From: Methanobacteriota archaeon
Lineage (GTDB): Archaea > Thermoplasmatota > Thermoplasmata > Methanomassiliicoccales > UBA472
Length of the DNA: 43,329 bases
Assembly (NCBI GenBank): GCA_029560215.1
Contig: JAKPZB010000091.1
Location: forward strand, 1-43,329
Direction of reading: 5' to 3'
Shown: in pieces, positions 12,529 through 25,715 of the stretch
Numbering within the stretch: position 1 is the stretch's first letter
How the letters are laid out: every line of letters starts with the position of its first letter
Translations under genes and position numbers: made by a program
The notes under the pieces: model-generated
The model's input: only the letters and a program-made list of their open reading frames with translations
Told to the model about the DNA's origin: nothing
The model's database searches: none

Positions 12529-13176
12529 ATGAACTCCAGGGGCCTCATTCAGTGCGATAATCTTCGCAGCCAGCTAGGCGATGTCCCAGCACCGGGGCTC
12601 TATGTTCTGAACGTCAACTCCACGCATTTCGTGGTGGCGGAGCTGGTGCTGCTAAAAGCCCTCCTAGGCCATGGGAACCCCGGGCTGTTCGTATCCGTCG
12701 ATCGCCCGCACCAGTACATCGTTCATCTGCTGAAGATGCATGGGATCGCCCACGAAGGGCTGCGTTTCATCGACACCGTGTCCCGGTTCTCCCCCGGCGA
12801 GGCGAACCGCCGGGAGGGCATCGGTCTGATCAAAAATTCCAGCCACATCGACGAGCTGCCCGTGGCGCTCAGGGATTGTTCGTCCGTCCCAGGGGGCATC
12901 GACGTCTCCCAGCTGAGGTTCGCGATCATCGACAACGTTTCCATTTTGCTGATGTACAACAGCCATCGGGCCGTGGAGGGCTTCCTCCGGGATTTTACGC
13001 AGCTTCTCACCAGGAACGCGGCGGTGGTCTTGGTCATCAACCGGGAGAGGTATTCGGACCTGTACGCCACTGTCCTCTCGTTGGGGGCTGTGGAACTTGG
13101 TCTGGAATCCGAACAAGAGGGGGCGAACGGCGCCGTCCAATTCACAGAAGGCTTAAACTCAAGGAGGGGAAATTGA
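12529..13176 (+). CDS. RecA/KaiC-fold-like hypothetical protein lacking a Walker A motif
   Basis: 216-aa-scale ORF with GLYVLNVNSTHFVVAELVLLKALL, GLFVSVDRPHQYIVHLLKMHGI and LRFAIIDNVSILLMYN pattern; directly precedes a KaiC-like gene. Confidence 0.65.
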   Translation: MNSRGLIQCDNLRSQLGDVPAPGLYVLNVNSTHFVVAELVLLKALLGHGNPGLFVSVDRPHQYIVHLLKMHGIAHEGLRFIDTVSRFSPGEANRREGIGLIKNSSHIDELPVALRDCSSVPGGIDVSQLRFAIIDNVSILLMYNSHRAVEGFLRDFTQLLTRNAAVVLVINRERYSDLYATVLSLGAVELGLESEQEGANGAVQFTEGLNSRRGN

Positions 13177-13178
13177 TC

Positions 13179-13880
13179 ATGGAGAAGGATAAGGTGCAAG
13201 GCGTGGAAATGGAAAGGATTCCTTCAGGCATACCTGGTCTGGATGAACTTATCGAAGGCGGATTTCCGTTTCCCTCGGTGATATTGGTATCAGGACCCAC
13301 AGGCACCGGGAAGACCACTTTCTGCCTGCGTTTCCTCTGCAAAGGCGCGGAACGGGGAGAGCGGGGGCTGTTCTTCACCACCCTGAGCGAATCAGTTCAT
13401 TGGATGCTTCGCTTCTCCTCTCAGCTCAGTTTCATGCACCCGGAGTACATCGACCAGGACATTGTGTATGTGGATTTGGGCGAACTGATAAGGTCCGGGG
13501 ACCACGACAAGATATTGGAGGCCATCGAGCGCAACATCGCGGAGGTCATGCCGCAGCGCATCGTCATCGACCCCATCACGGTGGTGGGGGACATGCTCAA
13601 GGAGGATTACCGCAGCTTCCTGTTCGACCTCGGCAACCGCCTCAAGCATTGGAACGCCACCACCCTGGTCACCGGGGAGGTCCATCCCGGCGAGCTGTAC
13701 CCTCCGGAGATAGCCTACACGGTGGATGGCATAGTCCTGCTGGTGGTGGATGATGAGCATGGAGACCGGCGCAAGTACCTGGAGGTGTTAAAGATGCGGG
13801 GGACCGCTCACAGCTCCGGAAGGCACTCCATAGACATCTCCCGCAAGGATGGATTGGTGGTCCTCAAGGCCAGGTTCTGA
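13179..13880 (+). CDS. KaiC/RadA-like RecA-superfamily ATPase
   Basis: ERIPSGIPGLDELIEGGFPFPSVILVSGPTGTGKTTFCLRFLCKGAERGERGLFFTTLSE; Walker B-like QRIVIDPITVV. Start ATG 13179, 2 bp after the preceding stop. Confidence 0.9.
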   Translation: MEKDKVQGVEMERIPSGIPGLDELIEGGFPFPSVILVSGPTGTGKTTFCLRFLCKGAERGERGLFFTTLSESVHWMLRFSSQLSFMHPEYIDQDIVYVDLGELIRSGDHDKILEAIERNIAEVMPQRIVIDPITVVGDMLKEDYRSFLFDLGNRLKHWNATTLVTGEVHPGELYPPEIAYTVDGIVLLVVDDEHGDRRKYLEVLKMRGTAHSSGRHSIDISRKDGLVVLKARF

Positions 13881-18202: not shown

Positions 18203-18255
18203 CCTTAACTCTTCAATCCAACACCTTCTTATCTATCGATTCTGTTCTCCTGGAC

Positions 18256-19422
18256 ATGCAGCTCACCCCGGAAGAGCAGGCCATGCTGGCCGGCAAGGAA
18301 GGCAAGGCCAAGCGCAAGGCCATGGAGCTATTGGTGGCCTTGGGGGCCATATACGGCGCCGACCGCCTCGTACCCATCACCTCCGCCCACCTCTCCGGAG
18401 TGTCCTACAAGACCATAGGCGAGGGCGGGATCGATTTCCTGGAGGAGATGGCCGCCGACGGAAAGGTGGTCGTGCCCACCACCCTAAACCCCATGGGGAT
18501 GGACGGGGAGCGGTGGAAGGAGATGGGCGTGGACCAGCATTTCGCCGACCGGCAACTGCTCATCATATCGCTCTACGAAAAGATGGGCGTGGAGGTCAAC
18601 TGCACCTGCACCCCCTATCTGCTCACCAACCGGCCGAAGGTGGGGGACCACATCGCCTGGGCGGAATCTTCGGCGCTTTCCTTCGCCAATTCCGTGCTGG
18701 GCGCCCGCACCAACCGGGAAGGTGGCCCGGGAGCCCTGGCCGCGGCCATCACCGGGCGCACCCCCAACTACGGGCTGCATCTGGACCAGAACCGCAGGGC
18801 CACCCACGTGGTGGAGGTGGAAAAGGGGATAACCAAGGACGAGTGGTCCCTGGTCGGGCACGCCGTGGGAAGGAAACTGGGGGCCTGCATACCCTTCTTC
18901 CGCGGGCTCGGCAACGACGTGAACTGCCTCAAATCCCTGGCCGCGGCCATGGCCGCCGCTGGTTCGGTGGCCATGTTCATGGTGGAGAACGCCACCCCGG
19001 AGCAGCCTGATTCGCTCGAGGGGCTGCCGGTGGTCAAGATCACCCGCCAGGACATCGAGGACACCGTCAAGCGGCTGAGAACCGGGACCAAGCCGGACCT
19101 CATCGCCATAGGCTGCCCCCATCTCTCGGAGAGGGAGATGAAGGAGCTGGCCGGTTTCCTCGACGGCAAGAGGAAGAAAGGCGATGTGGAGGTCTGGTTC
19201 TGCACCTCCAAGGGCGTGTGGCTGCGCTGCCCCAAGGAGCGGGCGGTGCTGGAGCGCTTCGGCAAGGTGCTCTGCGACACCTGCATGGTGGTGGCGCCTA
19301 TCGAGGGGAAGCACAAGGTCACCGCCAGCGATTCCGCCAAGGCCTGCGCCTACCTTCCCGGGCTGTGCTCGCAGAAGGTGTATTGCGGTTCCCGGCGCGA
19401 ACTCATGGAGCTGATGCTGTGA
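18256..19422 (+). CDS. aconitase X catalytic (large) subunit, phosphomevalonate dehydratase large subunit-like
   Basis: MQLTPEEQAMLAGKEGKAKRKAMELLVALGAIYGADRLVPITSAHLSGVSYKTIGEGGIDFLEEM; CTCTPYLLTNRPKVGDHIAWAESSALSFANSVLGARTNREGGPGALAAAITGRTPNYGLH. Start after the tRNA, not 18145. Confidence 0.9.
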   Translation: MQLTPEEQAMLAGKEGKAKRKAMELLVALGAIYGADRLVPITSAHLSGVSYKTIGEGGIDFLEEMAADGKVVVPTTLNPMGMDGERWKEMGVDQHFADRQLLIISLYEKMGVEVNCTCTPYLLTNRPKVGDHIAWAESSALSFANSVLGARTNREGGPGALAAAITGRTPNYGLHLDQNRRATHVVEVEKGITKDEWSLVGHAVGRKLGACIPFFRGLGNDVNCLKSLAAAMAAAGSVAMFMVENATPEQPDSLEGLPVVKITRQDIEDTVKRLRTGTKPDLIAIGCPHLSEREMKELAGFLDGKRKKGDVEVWFCTSKGVWLRCPKERAVLERFGKVLCDTCMVVAPIEGKHKVTASDSAKACAYLPGLCSQKVYCGSRRELMELML

Positions 19423-20192
19423 AGCTGAAAGGGCGGGAGATATTCAAGGGAAAGGCGATCGGACGGCTGCTGTTATTGGACGAACCGTTCAGCTTCCTGG
19501 GCGGGGTCGACCCGAAGACCGGGCTGCTGACGGTGGCCTCCGGGCGGGAAGGGGAGAACGTGGAGAACCGTATCCTGGTCTTCCCGTACGGCAAAGGCTC
19601 CACGGTCGGTTCGTACACCATCATGGACCTGAAGAAGAACGGACACCTGCCCGCGGCCATCGTCAACGCCCAGGCGGAGACGATAGTGGCCACCGGGGCG
19701 GTCATGGCCGGAGTGCCGATGATCGACTCCATCGACCTCTCCCTGCTCCGGGACGGCGACCGGGCAGTGGTGATCGGCGACGGATTGGACATGATGGACC
19801 TGGTGGAGAAGAGAGTGGTCACCTGCGTGCTGCGCCGTAAAGGGAAGATGCTGATACTGAAGCGCAGCCAGAAGGTCGGGACCAACAGAGGCAAGTGGGC
19901 CGCGGTGAGCGGCTACATCGAGCGCGGCGAGAGGCCGGAGGAGACCGCCCTGAAGGAGGTGGCCGAGGAGACCGGGATAACCACCGCCCGGCTTGAAGGC
20001 CGGGGAGAGACGCTGCGCATCCGGGACGGAACCTACGTTTGGAGCATCTATCCCTTCCTGTTCGAGGTGGGCGACGAGGAGGTCAAGCTGGACTGGGAGC
20101 ACACCGAGTGCGCCTGGGTGGAGGTCTCGGAGCTACAGGGCTACGACACCGTCCCCGGCTTCCTCAAGGTGCTGGGATCACTGGGACTATAG
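19419..20192 (+). CDS. aconitase X small (swivel) subunit fused to a C-terminal Nudix hydrolase domain
   Basis: GTG start overlaps the large subunit stop (GTGA). DUF126 motif FPYGKGSTVGSYTIMDLKKNGHLPAAIVNAQAETIVATGAVMAGVPMID at about 19419-19809. Nudix box GYIERGERPEETALKEVAEETGI at about 19909-19978. Confidence 0.9.
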   Translation: MKLKGREIFKGKAIGRLLLLDEPFSFLGGVDPKTGLLTVASGREGENVENRILVFPYGKGSTVGSYTIMDLKKNGHLPAAIVNAQAETIVATGAVMAGVPMIDSIDLSLLRDGDRAVVIGDGLDMMDLVEKRVVTCVLRRKGKMLILKRSQKVGTNRGKWAAVSGYIERGERPEETALKEVAEETGITTARLEGRGETLRIRDGTYVWSIYPFLFEVGDEEVKLDWEHTECAWVEVSELQGYDTVPGFLKVLGSLGL

Positions 20193-23100
20193 CGTCCCGT
20201 CCACTTCCTTCTCCAGCAGGTTCAGCTCGTTGGCGTCCAGGGTGGAAGGGTTCAGCACCATCATCATGATGGAGTTGTTTATGGCCACCTGGTCCCTCAG
20301 CGACTGGACGAAGCGCAGCACGGTGAGGAAGTTGTTGTTGGTTATCAGGTACTCCAACCCATCCAGCAGCACCACGCCCTGCCCCTGGGTCAGGAACTGC
20401 TCGAGCGAGTAGTTCAGCTTCTCCAGGTCCTTGGGGCGCAGGCTGTCCTCCTTGCCCACGTTGCTCAGCCAAACGATCGGGGTCTCGCCCAGTTCGTACT
20501 TGCCGCGGATCTTCACCGGGTAGTTGCGGGTGATGCAGAATCCCCGCTTGCCCTTCTTCAACTGTTCCATGAACAGCTCGTACGAGCGGTCGGAACGGTC
20601 GTCCTTGATCAGGTAGCTGTATCCATCCTGCAGTCCCTGGACCTTGGGCGCTTCCGTTTCCTCCTCTACGACCTCCACCCGCAGCGAGGCGCCGCAGGAA
20701 GGGCAGTTCAGGTCCTTGGCGGATACCTCCCGCCCACACTTGGCGCAGGGGGTGCAGCGCTGGAAGCCTCCGTCGGCGATATACCTCAGTATCTCGTCGA
20801 TGGTCTTGCTCCCCAGCCCGGGGACGCTCTTCAGCTCTTCCCGGTCGGCCGCCTGCAGCCGGTCCAATGAATCGTATCCAGCATCGTATAGCATCTCTGC
20901 CTTGAGCTCGTTCATGCGCGGAATGCGCAAGAGGTAAGGCGCCATCTCCGCCTTGTCCATGGTCTTGCCGGTGCCCTCCGGGACGGCCTTGCAGACCTCG
21001 ACGGCGCGGTCGGAGTGGTGCAGCGCCCGGCGCACGTCGGCCTTGGGCAGCTTGGTCATCTCCTCGATCTTGTCCTCGCCCAACTGCTTCAGGTCGGCCT
21101 CGGTGCGAACCCCGGCGTCCACCAGGGCCTCGGCGGCCTTGGCGGTTATCCCGGGTATCTTGGCCAGCTCCTTGATGGAATCCTTCAGGTTCATGGAGGT
21201 GATGCCCATCTCCACTTTCTCCCCCTCGATCTCCCACTTGCCGACCTGGTCGCCGTGGACCTCCATCACCAGTTCCAGGGATTTGGAGCGCACCTCGGAC
21301 ATGATGTGCTGCTTCCACATCTTGATGTATTCCGCCAACTTCGCGTCGGCGCGGACCTCAACCTTGATGAACTCCTCGACGTCCAGCTTCATCTCCTTGC
21401 GGGTCTGCTGGATCCGGCGTATGATCTCCCGGGAGAACCCTTCCGCCTCGATCTCACGGGTGACCTCGAAGTCCAGGTAGAGCTCGCCGCCGCTGAATGT
21501 GGCGGCGTAGACGTCCTTGGGAAGGGAAACGGTGAAGGATACCATGTTCGGCTCGATCTTCACCAGCTGCCCCTCGATCCCCAGGGAATACTCGCCCCGC
21601 TGCATGCTCTCCTTGATCAGTCCGGCCGGCCGGCTCTGCAGCAGCACCGCGATCTTGGAGGCCCATTGCCGATACACCTTCCCGATGGCCATGGGGTTCG
21701 GCACGACGTTGAGAACGGTCTCCGACCACTCCTCGCCGGTGCCCACGTACTCGACCTCCTTGACATTGGCCTGGGACTTGAGAATGTCCTCCAGGGCGCG
21801 CAATGCGATAAGGGTGTCGTTGCTGTCGACCTTGATCACCACCCTTTTCATCGGCCAGCGCAGCTTGACGTTCTTCAGCTGTCTCTCCCGGGTGACCGTC
21901 TCCACGATCTCCTGGACCATGGACATGGCCTTCTCCAGGCGTTCGTCGACCTTGGTCAGGTCGCTGTTGGGCCAGTCCATCATGTGCACCGTCGGCTTGG
22001 AGCCGTCCATGTGCCGGTAGACCTCCTCGGCCAGATGCGGACATATCGGCGCCAGCAGCAGCGTGGTCTCCATTATCGCGTCGTATAGCGTGCGATAGGC
22101 GGCCAGCTTCCCGGCGTCACCCTCCTCGCTCCACATGCGGTCCCTGATCAATCGAACGTACCATCTCGACAGATCGTCCAGTATGTACTCTTCCAAGGCC
22201 CTTCCGGCCTTGTGCAGCTCCAGGGCGTTCACCTGGCGGGTGAACTCGTTCTTGAGCTTCTCGGTGCGGGAGATGAGCCAGATGTCCTCCTGTTTGAGAT
22301 GCGCGCGCACCGCCTCCTTGGTGATGCGCTGCGGCTCGAAGCGGTCGATGGCCATGTAGGTGGTGGCGAAGTTGACCACGTTCCAGAAGACGTTCAAGGT
22401 CTTGCGGGCGTTCTTCACCCCCTCCATCTGGAAGGGGATGTCCTCCCAAGGGGCGGAGGTCTTCAGCAGGTAGAAGCGAAGGGCGTCGGCCCCGTGCTCC
22501 TTGATGACCTTGCCCGGCTCGACCACGTTGCCCTTGCTCTTGGACATGGGCTGGCCTTGGCCGTCCAGCATCCATCCGTGCATCAGCACCGATTCGTATG
22601 GAGCGCGTCCGAAGGCGATCACGCCCGCGGCGAGCTGCGAATAGAACCATCCCCTGGTCTGATCGTGAGCTTCGACGATGAACTTGGCCGGCCAGAGCCG
22701 CTCGAAAGCGTCCCGCCTCTTGGGGAATCCCAGCTGCGCCCACGAGGCCACGGCCGAATCGAACCAAACGTCCAGAACGTCCGGCACCCGGCTCATCTTG
22801 CCCCCGCACTTGGGGCAGACCAGCTTGACGGAGTCTATCCAGGGGCGGTGAAGCTCCATGTCCTCCACGTAGCCTTCGGCTCCCTTGAGCTCGTCGGTCA
22901 TGCCCACCACCCGTATCTCTCCGCAGGAACAGGTCCAGACCGGGATGGGTATGCCCCAGTACCTCTGCCGGGAGATGCACCAGTCGCGGGCGTTCATGGC
23001 CCAGTCGTATTCGCGGGAGGACCCGGCCCAGTCCGGGGTCCAGCGGACCTTCTCGATCTCCTCCAGCATCTGGTTCTTGACCTGGGTGACCCGCAGGAAC

Positions 23101-24347
23101 CACTGGTCGGTGGTTCGGAATAGAACGGGAGATTTACAACGCCAGCAGTGGCCGAAACGGTGTTCGATGGTGCCGCTGAAGAACAAGCGGTCGTTGGCCT
23201 CCAGGTCCTTGAGCAGCTCCGGATTGGCCTTCTTTATGTGCATGCCGACGTACTTGCTTCCCACCAGCGGGGTGTACACCCCGGCCTCGTCGACCGGGCA
23301 GAAGGGCTCGAGCCCGAACTCCTTGCCCAGCTCGAAGTCCTCCGGGCCGTGGCCGGGGGCGATGTGCACCAGTCCGGTGTTGGAGGCCTCCACGTTCTTG
23401 GAGGGAAGGACCTTGTGCAGCCATTTTCCAGTGGCCTGCGCCTGATAGGGGACCATGTCGATGAAGGGGGTTATGTACTCCACTCCGACCAGGTCGTCGC
23501 CCTGGATGGTCTGGAGCACCTCATACTTCTCCCAGCCTCCCAGGTCCTTGATCTCCTCCTCCAGCCCCTTCATGATGATGACCGTGTCGGTGACCCCGAT
23601 GCGCCGGTAGCGCACCTTGACGTATTCGAAATCGGGGTGAGCGGCCACCGCCAGGTTGGCCGGCAACGTCCAGGGAGTGGTGGTCCAGATCAAGAGCGAG
23701 ACCTTGGGGTCGTCCTTCAGTCGGAACTTGACGTAGATCGAAGGGTCCTTCTCGTCCCAATAGTCGATCTCCGCCTCGGCCAGGGCGGTCTCGCAGCGCG
23801 GGCAGCCCGGAAGCACCCGGCTGGCCTTGATCAGAAGTCCTTTGTCGTAAGCGCGCTTGAGCGTCCACCAGGCCGCTTCTATGTAGCCCGGGGCGATGGT
23901 GAGGTACGGTCTATCCCAATCGAACCACACGCCCAGCTCTTTGAAGTCGGCGTTCATCTGCTTCTGGAAGTCCAGGGCGAAGTTCTTGCACGTACCGACG
24001 AAGCGGTCGATGCCGTACTCCTCGATCTCCTTCTTGTTCTTCACGCCTATGGACTTCTCCACCTTGACCTCGATGGGTAGCCCATGCATGTCGTAGCCAG
24101 GAGTATCGCTCACGTTGAACTTCTGCATGCGCTTGAACCGGACGATCATGTCCTTGATGGTCTTGTTCATCGCTGTGCCAAGGTGGATGTATCCAGTGGT
24201 GTAGGGAGGACCGTCCACGAAATAGAAGTCCGGGCCGGAGGCCCTGAGTTCCTTGGTCTTCTTGTACGCGTCGGTCTCCGCCCAAAGGGCCTGCACCGAC
24301 CTTTCCAGCGCGCTAGGGTTATAACTGCCTTGGACCTGCTTTATCAT
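20187..24347 (-). CDS. ileS: isoleucyl-tRNA synthetase with C-terminal HhH, zinc-ribbon and DUF835 extension
   Basis: 1386-aa continuous ORF: class I synthetase with YTTGYIHLGTAMNK (HIGH-like), MSKSKGNVVEPG (KMSKS), C-terminal IleRS end EIEGEKVEMGI, then about 330 additional aa. Confidence 0.95.
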   Translation of the reverse strand: MIKQVQGSYNPSALERSVQALWAETDAYKKTKELRASGPDFYFVDGPPYTTGYIHLGTAMNKTIKDMIVRFKRMQKFNVSDTPGYDMHGLPIEVKVEKSIGVKNKKEIEEYGIDRFVGTCKNFALDFQKQMNADFKELGVWFDWDRPYLTIAPGYIEAAWWTLKRAYDKGLLIKASRVLPGCPRCETALAEAEIDYWDEKDPSIYVKFRLKDDPKVSLLIWTTTPWTLPANLAVAAHPDFEYVKVRYRRIGVTDTVIIMKGLEEEIKDLGGWEKYEVLQTIQGDDLVGVEYITPFIDMVPYQAQATGKWLHKVLPSKNVEASNTGLVHIAPGHGPEDFELGKEFGLEPFCPVDEAGVYTPLVGSKYVGMHIKKANPELLKDLEANDRLFFSGTIEHRFGHCWRCKSPVLFRTTDQWFLRVTQVKNQMLEEIEKVRWTPDWAGSSREYDWAMNARDWCISRQRYWGIPIPVWTCSCGEIRVVGMTDELKGAEGYVEDMELHRPWIDSVKLVCPKCGGKMSRVPDVLDVWFDSAVASWAQLGFPKRRDAFERLWPAKFIVEAHDQTRGWFYSQLAAGVIAFGRAPYESVLMHGWMLDGQGQPMSKSKGNVVEPGKVIKEHGADALRFYLLKTSAPWEDIPFQMEGVKNARKTLNVFWNVVNFATTYMAIDRFEPQRITKEAVRAHLKQEDIWLISRTEKLKNEFTRQVNALELHKAGRALEEYILDDLSRWYVRLIRDRMWSEEGDAGKLAAYRTLYDAIMETTLLLAPICPHLAEEVYRHMDGSKPTVHMMDWPNSDLTKVDERLEKAMSMVQEIVETVTRERQLKNVKLRWPMKRVVIKVDSNDTLIALRALEDILKSQANVKEVEYVGTGEEWSETVLNVVPNPMAIGKVYRQWASKIAVLLQSRPAGLIKESMQRGEYSLGIEGQLVKIEPNMVSFTVSLPKDVYAATFSGGELYLDFEVTREIEAEGFSREIIRRIQQTRKEMKLDVEEFIKVEVRADAKLAEYIKMWKQHIMSEVRSKSLELVMEVHGDQVGKWEIEGEKVEMGITSMNLKDSIKELAKIPGITAKAAEALVDAGVRTEADLKQLGEDKIEEMTKLPKADVRRALHHSDRAVEVCKAVPEGTGKTMDKAEMAPYLLRIPRMNELKAEMLYDAGYDSLDRLQAADREELKSVPGLGSKTIDEILRYIADGGFQRCTPCAKCGREVSAKDLNCPSCGASLRVEVVEEETEAPKVQGLQDGYSYLIKDDRSDRSYELFMEQLKKGKRGFCITRNYPVKIRGKYELGETPIVWLSNVGKEDSLRPKDLEKLNYSLEQFLTQGQGVVLLDGLEYLITNNNFLTVLRFVQSLRDQVAINNSIMMMVLNPSTLDANELNLLEKEVDGTL

Positions 24348-24430: not shown

Positions 24431-25441
24431 TCAGAACATGTCGAGGCGCATTTGGTCCTTCTTGCCGGAGGAGAACTTGTCCAAGGCCCCGTTCACCCTT
24501 TTCTCGGAGAACCCGTACTCTCCGCAGAGCATATCCAGCACCTTCTGGCGGTTCGGCGGGCTCCAGACCAGGCGATAATCGTCGGTGCGTTCATAGTCCA
24601 GGAATATCGAGCGCACCCGCTCCATCTCCTGGTCCTCCAGGCCCAGCGAGCGCAATGCCCCGGTCAGCGTCCCGTGCTGCTTGATCAGCTTGAGCGCTTT
24701 CCTCGGCCCGATGCCCATCACCCCCGGGTGAAAGTCCGTTCCGACCAGGATGCAGAGGTCCACCAGCTGCTTCCCGTTGAGCCCCAGGGCCGCCAGGGTC
24801 TCCTCGCGGTCGATGATCTGCATGCGCACCTCGCGGTACTCGTCCCTTCCTGGCATCTTGCGCCTTCCTGAAAGGGTGAGGTTGCGCACCAGCCGCGGGG
24901 CGCCGAAAAGAAGCGAATCGAAGTCCTGGGAGGCCGAGGCCCAGACATCCCCTTTGGCGCACATGTAGGCGGCCTGCGCCTCGCCTTCCTCGGGGGCTTG
25001 CACCACCGGAATGCCCAGGTGGGTCAAGAGGATGCGCGAGGATTCCACGATCTCATTGGTGATACGCGAGGACTGGGTGGCCTTGGAGTAGGCCTTCCGT
25101 ACATCGCCCTCGGCCTTGGCCTGCTCCCATTCCTTCTTGGCCGTCTCCCTCCTTTCCCGGCGCTCCCGGATGGTGGCGTCCTTCTTCTCCGGGGGGATGC
25201 CGTCGAAGACGTAGGCGGGCCGCAGCCCCATCTCCATCAGGTTGGCGTTGCGGTTGAGCAGACCCTCGAGGTGCGAGGTGATCCTACCCCGGGGGTCCAT
25301 GAGCGGGGTCCCGTCCGGCTGCCTGATCACCGATAGGAACTGATAGATGGCGTTGTAGGCGTCGATGGCCACGGTCCTTCCCATGAGGTCCCGCGGCTCC
25401 AGGTCCTTGGCCGCGACGAGGTCGGATAGGTTTACGCCCAT
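24431..25441 (-). CDS. fen: flap endonuclease 1
   Basis: MGVNLSDLVAAKDLEPRDLMGRTVAIDAYNAIYQFLS, YVFDGIPPEKK, VVQAPEEGEAQAAYMCAKGDVWASASQDFDSLLFGAPRLVRNL, C-terminal PCNA-interaction-like KKDQMRLDMF. Confidence 0.96.
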   Translation of the reverse strand: MGVNLSDLVAAKDLEPRDLMGRTVAIDAYNAIYQFLSVIRQPDGTPLMDPRGRITSHLEGLLNRNANLMEMGLRPAYVFDGIPPEKKDATIRERRERRETAKKEWEQAKAEGDVRKAYSKATQSSRITNEIVESSRILLTHLGIPVVQAPEEGEAQAAYMCAKGDVWASASQDFDSLLFGAPRLVRNLTLSGRRKMPGRDEYREVRMQIIDREETLAALGLNGKQLVDLCILVGTDFHPGVMGIGPRKALKLIKQHGTLTGALRSLGLEDQEMERVRSIFLDYERTDDYRLVWSPPNRQKVLDMLCGEYGFSEKRVNGALDKFSSGKKDQMRLDMF

Positions 25442-25505
25442 ATCGATCGAGGAGGTTATCCCTCTCGGCCATAAAGTTATTGTCCAAGTCACGAATGATT
25501 TCATC

Positions 25506-25715
25506 ATGCGCGACGAGCACGGCGAACCCGGAAGGAGGCCGGTGACGGAAGGCCAGACCTACGAGGTGAAGATCACCGACATCGGCGAAAGGGGTGACGG
25601 GATCGGAAAGATAGACGGTCTGGTGATAATCGTCCCCGATGCCACGCCGGGGGAGACGGTGAAGGTGCGCATCTCCCGGGTGGAGAGAAAGGTGGCGTTC
25701 GGCCGGAAGGTCTGA
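25506..25715 (+). CDS. TRAM-domain small RNA-binding protein
   Basis: GQTYEVKITDIGERGDGIGKIDGLVIIVPDATPGETVKVRISRVERKVAFGRKV; ATG at 25506, divergent from fen. Confidence 0.9.
   Translation: MRDEHGEPGRRPVTEGQTYEVKITDIGERGDGIGKIDGLVIIVPDATPGETVKVRISRVERKVAFGRKV

Follow-up and report, generated by a model that had tools for sequence, protein, structure and literature searches.

The locus raises the question of whether an isoleucyl-tRNA synthetase (IleRS) that continues in frame into a DUF835 module is genuinely a single protein, and what such a module does on a universal enzyme. The window (the whole stretch analysed, 43,329 nucleotides of contig JAKPZB010000091.1) belongs to a metagenome-assembled genome (MAG) of the Methanomassiliicoccales (1.37 Mb, 160 contigs, 83% complete). 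The minus-strand frame of 1386 aa reads through without interruption, and the Pfam/NCBIfam scan confirmed the content proposed by the initial annotation, namely a complete IleRS, two helix-hairpin-helix (HhH) regions, a zinc ribbon and DUF835 (TIGR00392 ileS, residues 6-845, 942.1 bits against a cut-off of 621.4; Anticodon_1, residues 688-837; DUF5915, a C-terminal junction domain, residues 853-1050; PF05763, 118.8 bits against a gathering cut-off of 33.1). DUF835 and the zinc ribbon lie within a few codons of the positions first assigned to them (Table 1), and all four zinc-ribbon cysteines are kept in 26 of 27 aligned extensions. The IleRS end point needed a small correction: the IleRS-type core stops at about residue 1050 (...VEMGIT). 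A separate ~35-kDa protein made from an internal start (ATG/GTG near 21205-21215), suggested as an alternative product, was rejected, since the in-frame Met there is Ile, Val or Leu in most relatives and the start is therefore not conserved.

Table 1 Features of the window, with the basis of each assignment (positions count from the first letter of the window).
Feature	Positions	Strand	Basis
KaiC-family ATPase, intact Walker A GPTGTGKT	13176..13880	+	PF06745, 147.6 bits
Aconitase X (AcnX): large subunit, and small subunit joined to NUDIX; downstream of ileS, convergent	18250..20192	+	Context
ileS-DUF835 fusion gene, 1386 aa, single ORF	20187..24347	-	Full-length orthologues in relatives
DUF835, residues 1251-1381, KaiC/RecA fold without Walker A	20205..20597	-	Pfam, 118.8 bits; AF2
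Zinc ribbon CxxC..CxxC, CTPCAKCGREVSAKDLNCPSCG, ~residues 1198-1222	20691..20756	-	Weak Pfam match; Cys conservation
Second helix-hairpin-helix, HHH_5, residues 1138-1188	20784..20936	-	Pfam, 61 bits; structural model
First helix-hairpin-helix-like region, residues 1059-1097	21057..21173	-	Weak Pfam matches; helices in structural model
IleRS core: catalytic, CP1 editing, anticodon-binding, DUF5915; residues 1-1050	21198..24347	-	TIGR00392, 942 bits; Pfam
KMSKS signature QPMSKSKGN, residues 599-607	22527..22553	-	Kept in window copy, destroyed in degenerate relatives
HIGH-region signature PPYTTGYIHLGTA, residues 47-59	24171..24209	-	Same form in the single-copy IleRS, lacking the tail, of family f2
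FEN1/XPG nuclease, conserved as the gene upstream of ileS	24431..25507	-	Context; synteny

Because the MAG is fragmented, the fusion was checked by comparison with other genomes. The full-length frame is present at 84-94% identity in seven other genomes of the genus (in an eighth, G007, it is divided between two contigs) and as single frames at ~58-72% identity in other families of the order. The HhH-zinc ribbon-DUF835 extension could be aligned across 27 sequences, and a profile built from them was searched against 300 genomes of the class. The search returned many further IleRS-sized frames, and among the representatives of these that were aligned, IleRS and DUF835 were verified as a single frame in a total of 67 genomes, which belong to 24 families. 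These sequences show the fusion across most families of the class, answering the proposal that the same architecture be sought in related genomes. In genomes sampled from the phylum's other classes, DUF835 matches reached at most 170 bits, none lay in an IleRS and none had an IleRS-like score or frame size, and the IleRS of the other classes sampled are frames of 934-1091 aa without DUF835; within the sample, the fusion is therefore a feature of one class.

The reading as an artefact, in which a missed stop or frameshift joins ileS to an independent DUF835 gene, draws on the source being a single MAG in 160 contigs, and is refuted by the comparative data. The identical single frame occurs in dozens of independent genomes, one of them a single contig, and synteny and boundary are conserved among relatives. 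Both a missed stop or frameshift and relatives encoding two separate proteins were looked for and not found, and we give an artefact a negligible probability. IleRS was the sole synthetase seen carrying DUF835 among the genomes examined; a multi-synthetase scaffold, with DUF835 fused to several synthetases, was considered and discarded, the other large DUF835 frames not being synthetases. The open-access literature searched (Thermoplasmata IleRS, C-terminal extensions, KaiC, pseudoenzymes) held no description of an IleRS-DUF835 architecture, and DUF835 was met there solely in the context of two-component systems and response regulators (PMC5847659); as far as found in it, this is an undescribed domain architecture for a universal enzyme.

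The constant element of the tail, in all these alignments, is DUF835 and not the HhH regions or the zinc ribbon. Compared pairwise within the order, DUF835 sequences are on average 76% identical, those of the catalytic region 74%, HhH regions 43-57% and zinc ribbons 39%; within the genus, dN/dS is 0.084 for DUF835, 0.060 for the catalytic region, 0.21 for HhH and 0.24 for the zinc ribbon, all rough values with dS about 1, near or at saturation. Judged by these substitution patterns, DUF835 is shown to be about as constrained within the genus as the catalytic domain, under strong purifying selection. In family f13, DUF835 stands almost directly after the IleRS core and the HhH/zinc ribbon part is absent; in family f16, the linker is lengthened by TPR repeats, giving proteins of up to 2929 aa (G098, L085:501-9287, minus strand, a degenerate IleRS with HhH, TPR arrays, zinc ribbons and DUF835). 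The weak conservation of HhH and zinc ribbon, and their absence in one family, speak against the earlier idea that tRNA or DNA tethering by HhH is the core function.

The AlphaFold check first suggested for this protein gave a confident KaiC-like fold for DUF835 (AF2, pLDDT 95, pTM 0.90), whose nearest solved folds are ArlH/FlaH (TM 0.72), the RecA-family ATPase PH0284 (TM 0.72-0.77) and KaiC. No Walker A motif (GxxxxGK[ST]) was present within the last 160 residues of the sequences scanned, and DUF835 is shown to be a KaiC/RecA fold without a P-loop. Fold and missing Walker A agree with the published description of DUF835 as an inactivated KaiC-like domain (iKaiC) in archaeal response regulators (PMC5847659). 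In quick FastTree estimates most IleRS-attached DUF835 domains form one clade with modest support, which also includes stand-alone DUF835 proteins, probably derived from the tail; the tails of f2-g23, f10 and f13 are placed outside it and may represent either long branches or re-fusion.

Part of the window's order lacks the tail: genus g12, some of g18, and all of family f2 apart from genus g23. The stop follows directly after the core in these relatives (~residue 1052), the order FEN1, ileS, AcnX small-NUDIX, AcnX large is unchanged in several tail-less lineages, and the AcnX genes hold the same place in tail-bearing and most tail-less relatives. In G053 (L259:3691-3987) a decayed DUF835 relic, with stops and frame changes, lies between tail-less ileS and AcnX, indicating that the tail was ancestral there and was lost rather than split off. 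The tail as a separate, split-off gene was rejected on this fossil, on the clean stop and on the tail-less genomes, in which no DUF835 of IleRS type was seen elsewhere. Since many genomes of the order live without it, the tail is dispensable for charging.

Loss of the tail was accompanied by loss of KaiC and DUF835 genes. KaiC-family matches in the order number 4-9 in 13/13 tail-bearing genomes and 0-1 in 13/14 tail-less ones (at least two KaiC in 13/13 against 1/14; Fisher 7e-7); the lone exception, G053, keeps five. DUF835 genes fall from a typical 8-11 (about 9) to 0-5. The co-loss is confounded by phylogeny: with family f2 counted as one event, it amounts to about three independent losses, and the statistics overstate independence. 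A point against strict dependence of the tail on KaiC comes from genus g23 of f2, where a divergent tail is kept despite 0-1 KaiC.

Both catalytic signatures are retained in the window protein, as HLGT (HIGH) and PMSKS (KMSKS). Neither form marks an inactive enzyme, a reading rejected because the same or similar forms recur in single-copy relatives, and only one IleRS was found in the window's genome at its completeness of 83%. The window gene is predicted to be the cell's working IleRS, charging tRNA-Ile, as one part of the overall explanation given below, which we hold with about even confidence.

The class has two types of IleRS: type A, that of the window, and type B, ~35% identical to A, of ~1000-1070 aa and with classical HIGH and KMSKS. 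Where type A is the only IleRS of a family, its signatures are retained. Type B is present in f11, f16, f21, f26, f29 and f32, where the A copy is degenerate and still ends in DUF835. KMSKS was lost in 16/16 complete degenerate copies (Lys603 0/16, Arg565 0/16, Gly606 0/16), as re-checked in the raw sequence; HIGH has disappeared from f11, f26 and f32, survives in part in f16 and f21, and retains its textbook form in f29. The ORFs are nevertheless unbroken (1310-2929 aa), and ~1050 residues can still be recognised as IleRS: structural Cys and Trp persist, as do portions of DUF5915 and of the anticodon domain (51-75% of its invariants). The invariants kept amount to 0.95/0.90 for DUF835 against 0.78-0.83/0.37-0.38 for the catalytic region, the lowest values (0.37-0.38) being those of the f11/f32 copies; dN/dS is 0.01-0.07 for DUF835 and, where dS was measurable, for the core, dS being saturated. 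A class I synthetase that lacks the KMSKS lysine as well as further active-site residues is not easily seen as active, and the degenerate copies are predicted to be inactive. An altered HIGH alone is compatible with synthetase activity (PMC10485003).

A second IleRS accompanies the degenerate copy in 17/17 genomes, against 5/50 genomes with a motif-intact A copy (four from f8, where the second enzyme is type B, and one from f23; Fisher 8e-12, phylogeny ignored). In the tree the degenerate copies fall into a single clade (0.988), and the type B enzymes that accompany them are subdivided in a similar way. A single ancient event is suggested by this, subject to the caveat that the degenerate clade has long branches. 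The tail is older than the catalytic loss. As far as found in the open-access literature searched, these IleRS-derived pseudo-synthetases form a group not described before; the only IleRS duplicates listed in a review of synthetase duplication are the mupirocin-resistant IleRS2 and SbzA (PMC9437257). Another divergent second IleRS (L219, G083:C27:100823-103279, 982 aa) branches basally to type B; the fused IleRS of its family has retained the motifs.

The degenerate copies, the co-loss with KaiC and DUF835 genes and the G053 fossil point to a second function, and a regulatory job is the most likely one for the fused protein. The architecture is read directly from the genomes; the mechanism is one that we infer. 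In this model a working IleRS carries a permanently attached, inactivated KaiC-type domain, with HhH and zinc ribbon as the flexible linker, and DUF835 would dock it onto KaiC-family ATPases and/or other DUF835 proteins. The synthetase body would serve as enzyme and sensor, reporting isoleucine or the charging state of tRNA-Ile to a KaiC hub, or, in the alternative direction, the KaiC hub would tune synthetase activity; the description of archaeal KaiC as a signalling hub goes back to a 2017 paper, as quoted in PMC5847659. Where charging passed to a second IleRS, the original fusion protein could have shed its catalytic activity and persisted, by analogy with GCN2, as a dedicated tRNA- or amino-acid-binding signalling protein. 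That the tail plugs IleRS into the archaeal KaiC signalling network in this way is a proposal that we find evenly balanced between right and wrong. Its widest form, a class-wide, stringency-like archaeal system in which IleRS reports to KaiC ATPases and one clade became a charging-dead, GCN2-like tRNA sensor, is tentative and somewhat unlikely. The coupling of regulation to isoleucine charging, already envisaged in the initial annotation, is thus favoured by the degenerate copies and the KaiC co-loss, and is not proven by them.

Appended synthetase domains often serve tRNA binding or complex assembly, and the main rival is accordingly a structural or tRNA-binding role, in which DUF835 and HhH aid oligomerisation, tRNA binding or a multi-synthetase or ribosome-associated complex, with no signalling. 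This precedent, the oligomerisation of KaiC/RecA folds and a linker of HhH and zinc ribbon that could touch nucleic acid all fit such a role. It is nevertheless the less likely reading, an unlikely one in our estimate, because HhH and zinc ribbon are weakly conserved (and missing in f13) and because the presence of the tail follows that of KaiC and of further DUF835 genes; DUF835 moreover outlives catalytic loss, and no synthetase other than IleRS carries it in the genomes examined. Less probable again is that only the tail moonlights, DUF835 regulating KaiC ATPases, for instance as an abundant subunit that is always present, with the synthetase a mere carrier or expression anchor: the DUF835 invariants are the best kept, degenerate copies included, and catalytic conservation is low in f11/f32, but a mere carrier should get trimmed, stand-alone DUF835 genes exist, and the degenerate copies retain the ~1050-residue IleRS body, with low dN/dS where measurable.

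It is very improbable that the degenerate copies acquired new catalysis on the IleRS scaffold (isoleucyl transfer, adenylate chemistry), the tail of active copies being a relic. The IleRS paralogue SbzA does transfer Ile in altemicidin synthesis (PMC9437257), and in f11 the degenerate copy is directly followed by a ketopantoate reductase gene in the same orientation; against this, the KMSKS Lys, R565 and G606 are lost in 16/16, and the tail is equally conserved in single-copy enzymes predicted to be fully active. The joining of a synthetase to a KaiC-like domain, with natural variants in which the charging motifs are lost and DUF835 is kept, offers a direct handle on starvation sensing in archaea without GCN2 and on the role of archaeal KaiC/DUF835 proteins, and the active, degenerate and tail-less IleRS forms can be compared in the same assays.

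Several known systems resemble parts of this one. The REC-DUF835/iKaiC proteins (PMC5847659) share DUF835 with the window protein; the input module here is a complete housekeeping synthetase and not a receiver, PAS or V4R domain, and the IleRS-attached domains mostly fall in their own clade, as described above. In GCN2 a HisRS-like domain senses uncharged tRNA (PMC4335047); there a synthetase-derived domain without charging is combined with a signalling module, a layout like that of the degenerate copies of the six type B families. The differences are that IleRS takes the place of HisRS, that the window copy keeps its catalytic signatures and that tRNA sensing is putative here. A kinase effector like that of GCN2 did not appear in the domain scans, and the catalytically inactive synthetase domain of GCN2 has its counterpart only in relatives from six families, where the motifs are lost, not in the window copy. 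HisZ, LeuRS-I and other synthetase-like proteins are duplicates that no longer charge tRNA and have acquired regulatory or other functions, charging being left to a second copy, and no IleRS joined to a KaiC-like domain is listed among them (PMC9437257). NF040702 (ileS_w_GNAT) and the eukaryotic IleRS C-terminal extensions are likewise IleRS with an extra C-terminal or fused module; the window protein is no match to NF040702 (445 bits against a cut-off of 1999) and its appended module is unrelated. The combination of HhH and a RecA-like domain resembles RadA/Rad51, and ArlH (FlaH) is, with KaiC, nearest to DUF835 taken alone; unlike RadA and ArlH, DUF835 has no Walker A and only ~140 residues.

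The window's genome has five KaiC matches, among them the ATPase of the window (Table 1), a possible partner of the tail. DUF835 occurs in the same genome on REC, V4R and other proteins, and stand-alone DUF835 genes exist. With the iKaiC of response regulators (PMC5847659), these partners bear out the first assignment of DUF835 as a signalling-type domain, and since both REC-DUF835 and V4R-DUF835 are present, DUF835 seems to be a shared docking or output unit to which interchangeable sensors are attached, and IleRS would be one of these.

Other genes around these loci were also recorded. Directly 5' of the window's KaiC ATPase stands an ORF that looks KaiC-like and has no Pfam match (pair at 12529-13880, plus strand); the pair is ~6 kb from ileS, and KaiC lies near ileS in some relatives too. 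The gene at 19419-20192 (plus strand), adjoining that of the AcnX large subunit, encodes the small, swivel subunit of AcnX joined to a NUDIX hydrolase domain, an arrangement conserved in relatives. In family f11 a ketopantoate reductase (PanE/ApbA) gene lies 3' of the degenerate IleRS-DUF835 gene, on the same strand, in 5/5 loci (L234:11058-15894, L235, L241, L242, L243), with a gap of ~5-30 bp in most of them, which suggests an operon and a tie to branched-chain/pantothenate metabolism.

Large DUF835 proteins of other kinds were found as well: frames of ~1620-1750 aa with no other Pfam domain in the scanned part (L093-L096, families f8 and f24), and uncharacterised proteins of 755-1036 aa ending in DUF835 (L097, L099, L101 and L103 in f13; L105-L108 in f11). 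Some of the f13 members have a PEGA-like domain; those of f11 have zinc ribbons and fall inside the IleRS-tail clade of the DUF835 tree. The family f29 genomes G137 and G143, with 31 and 37 DUF835 matches, show an unusual expansion of the domain.
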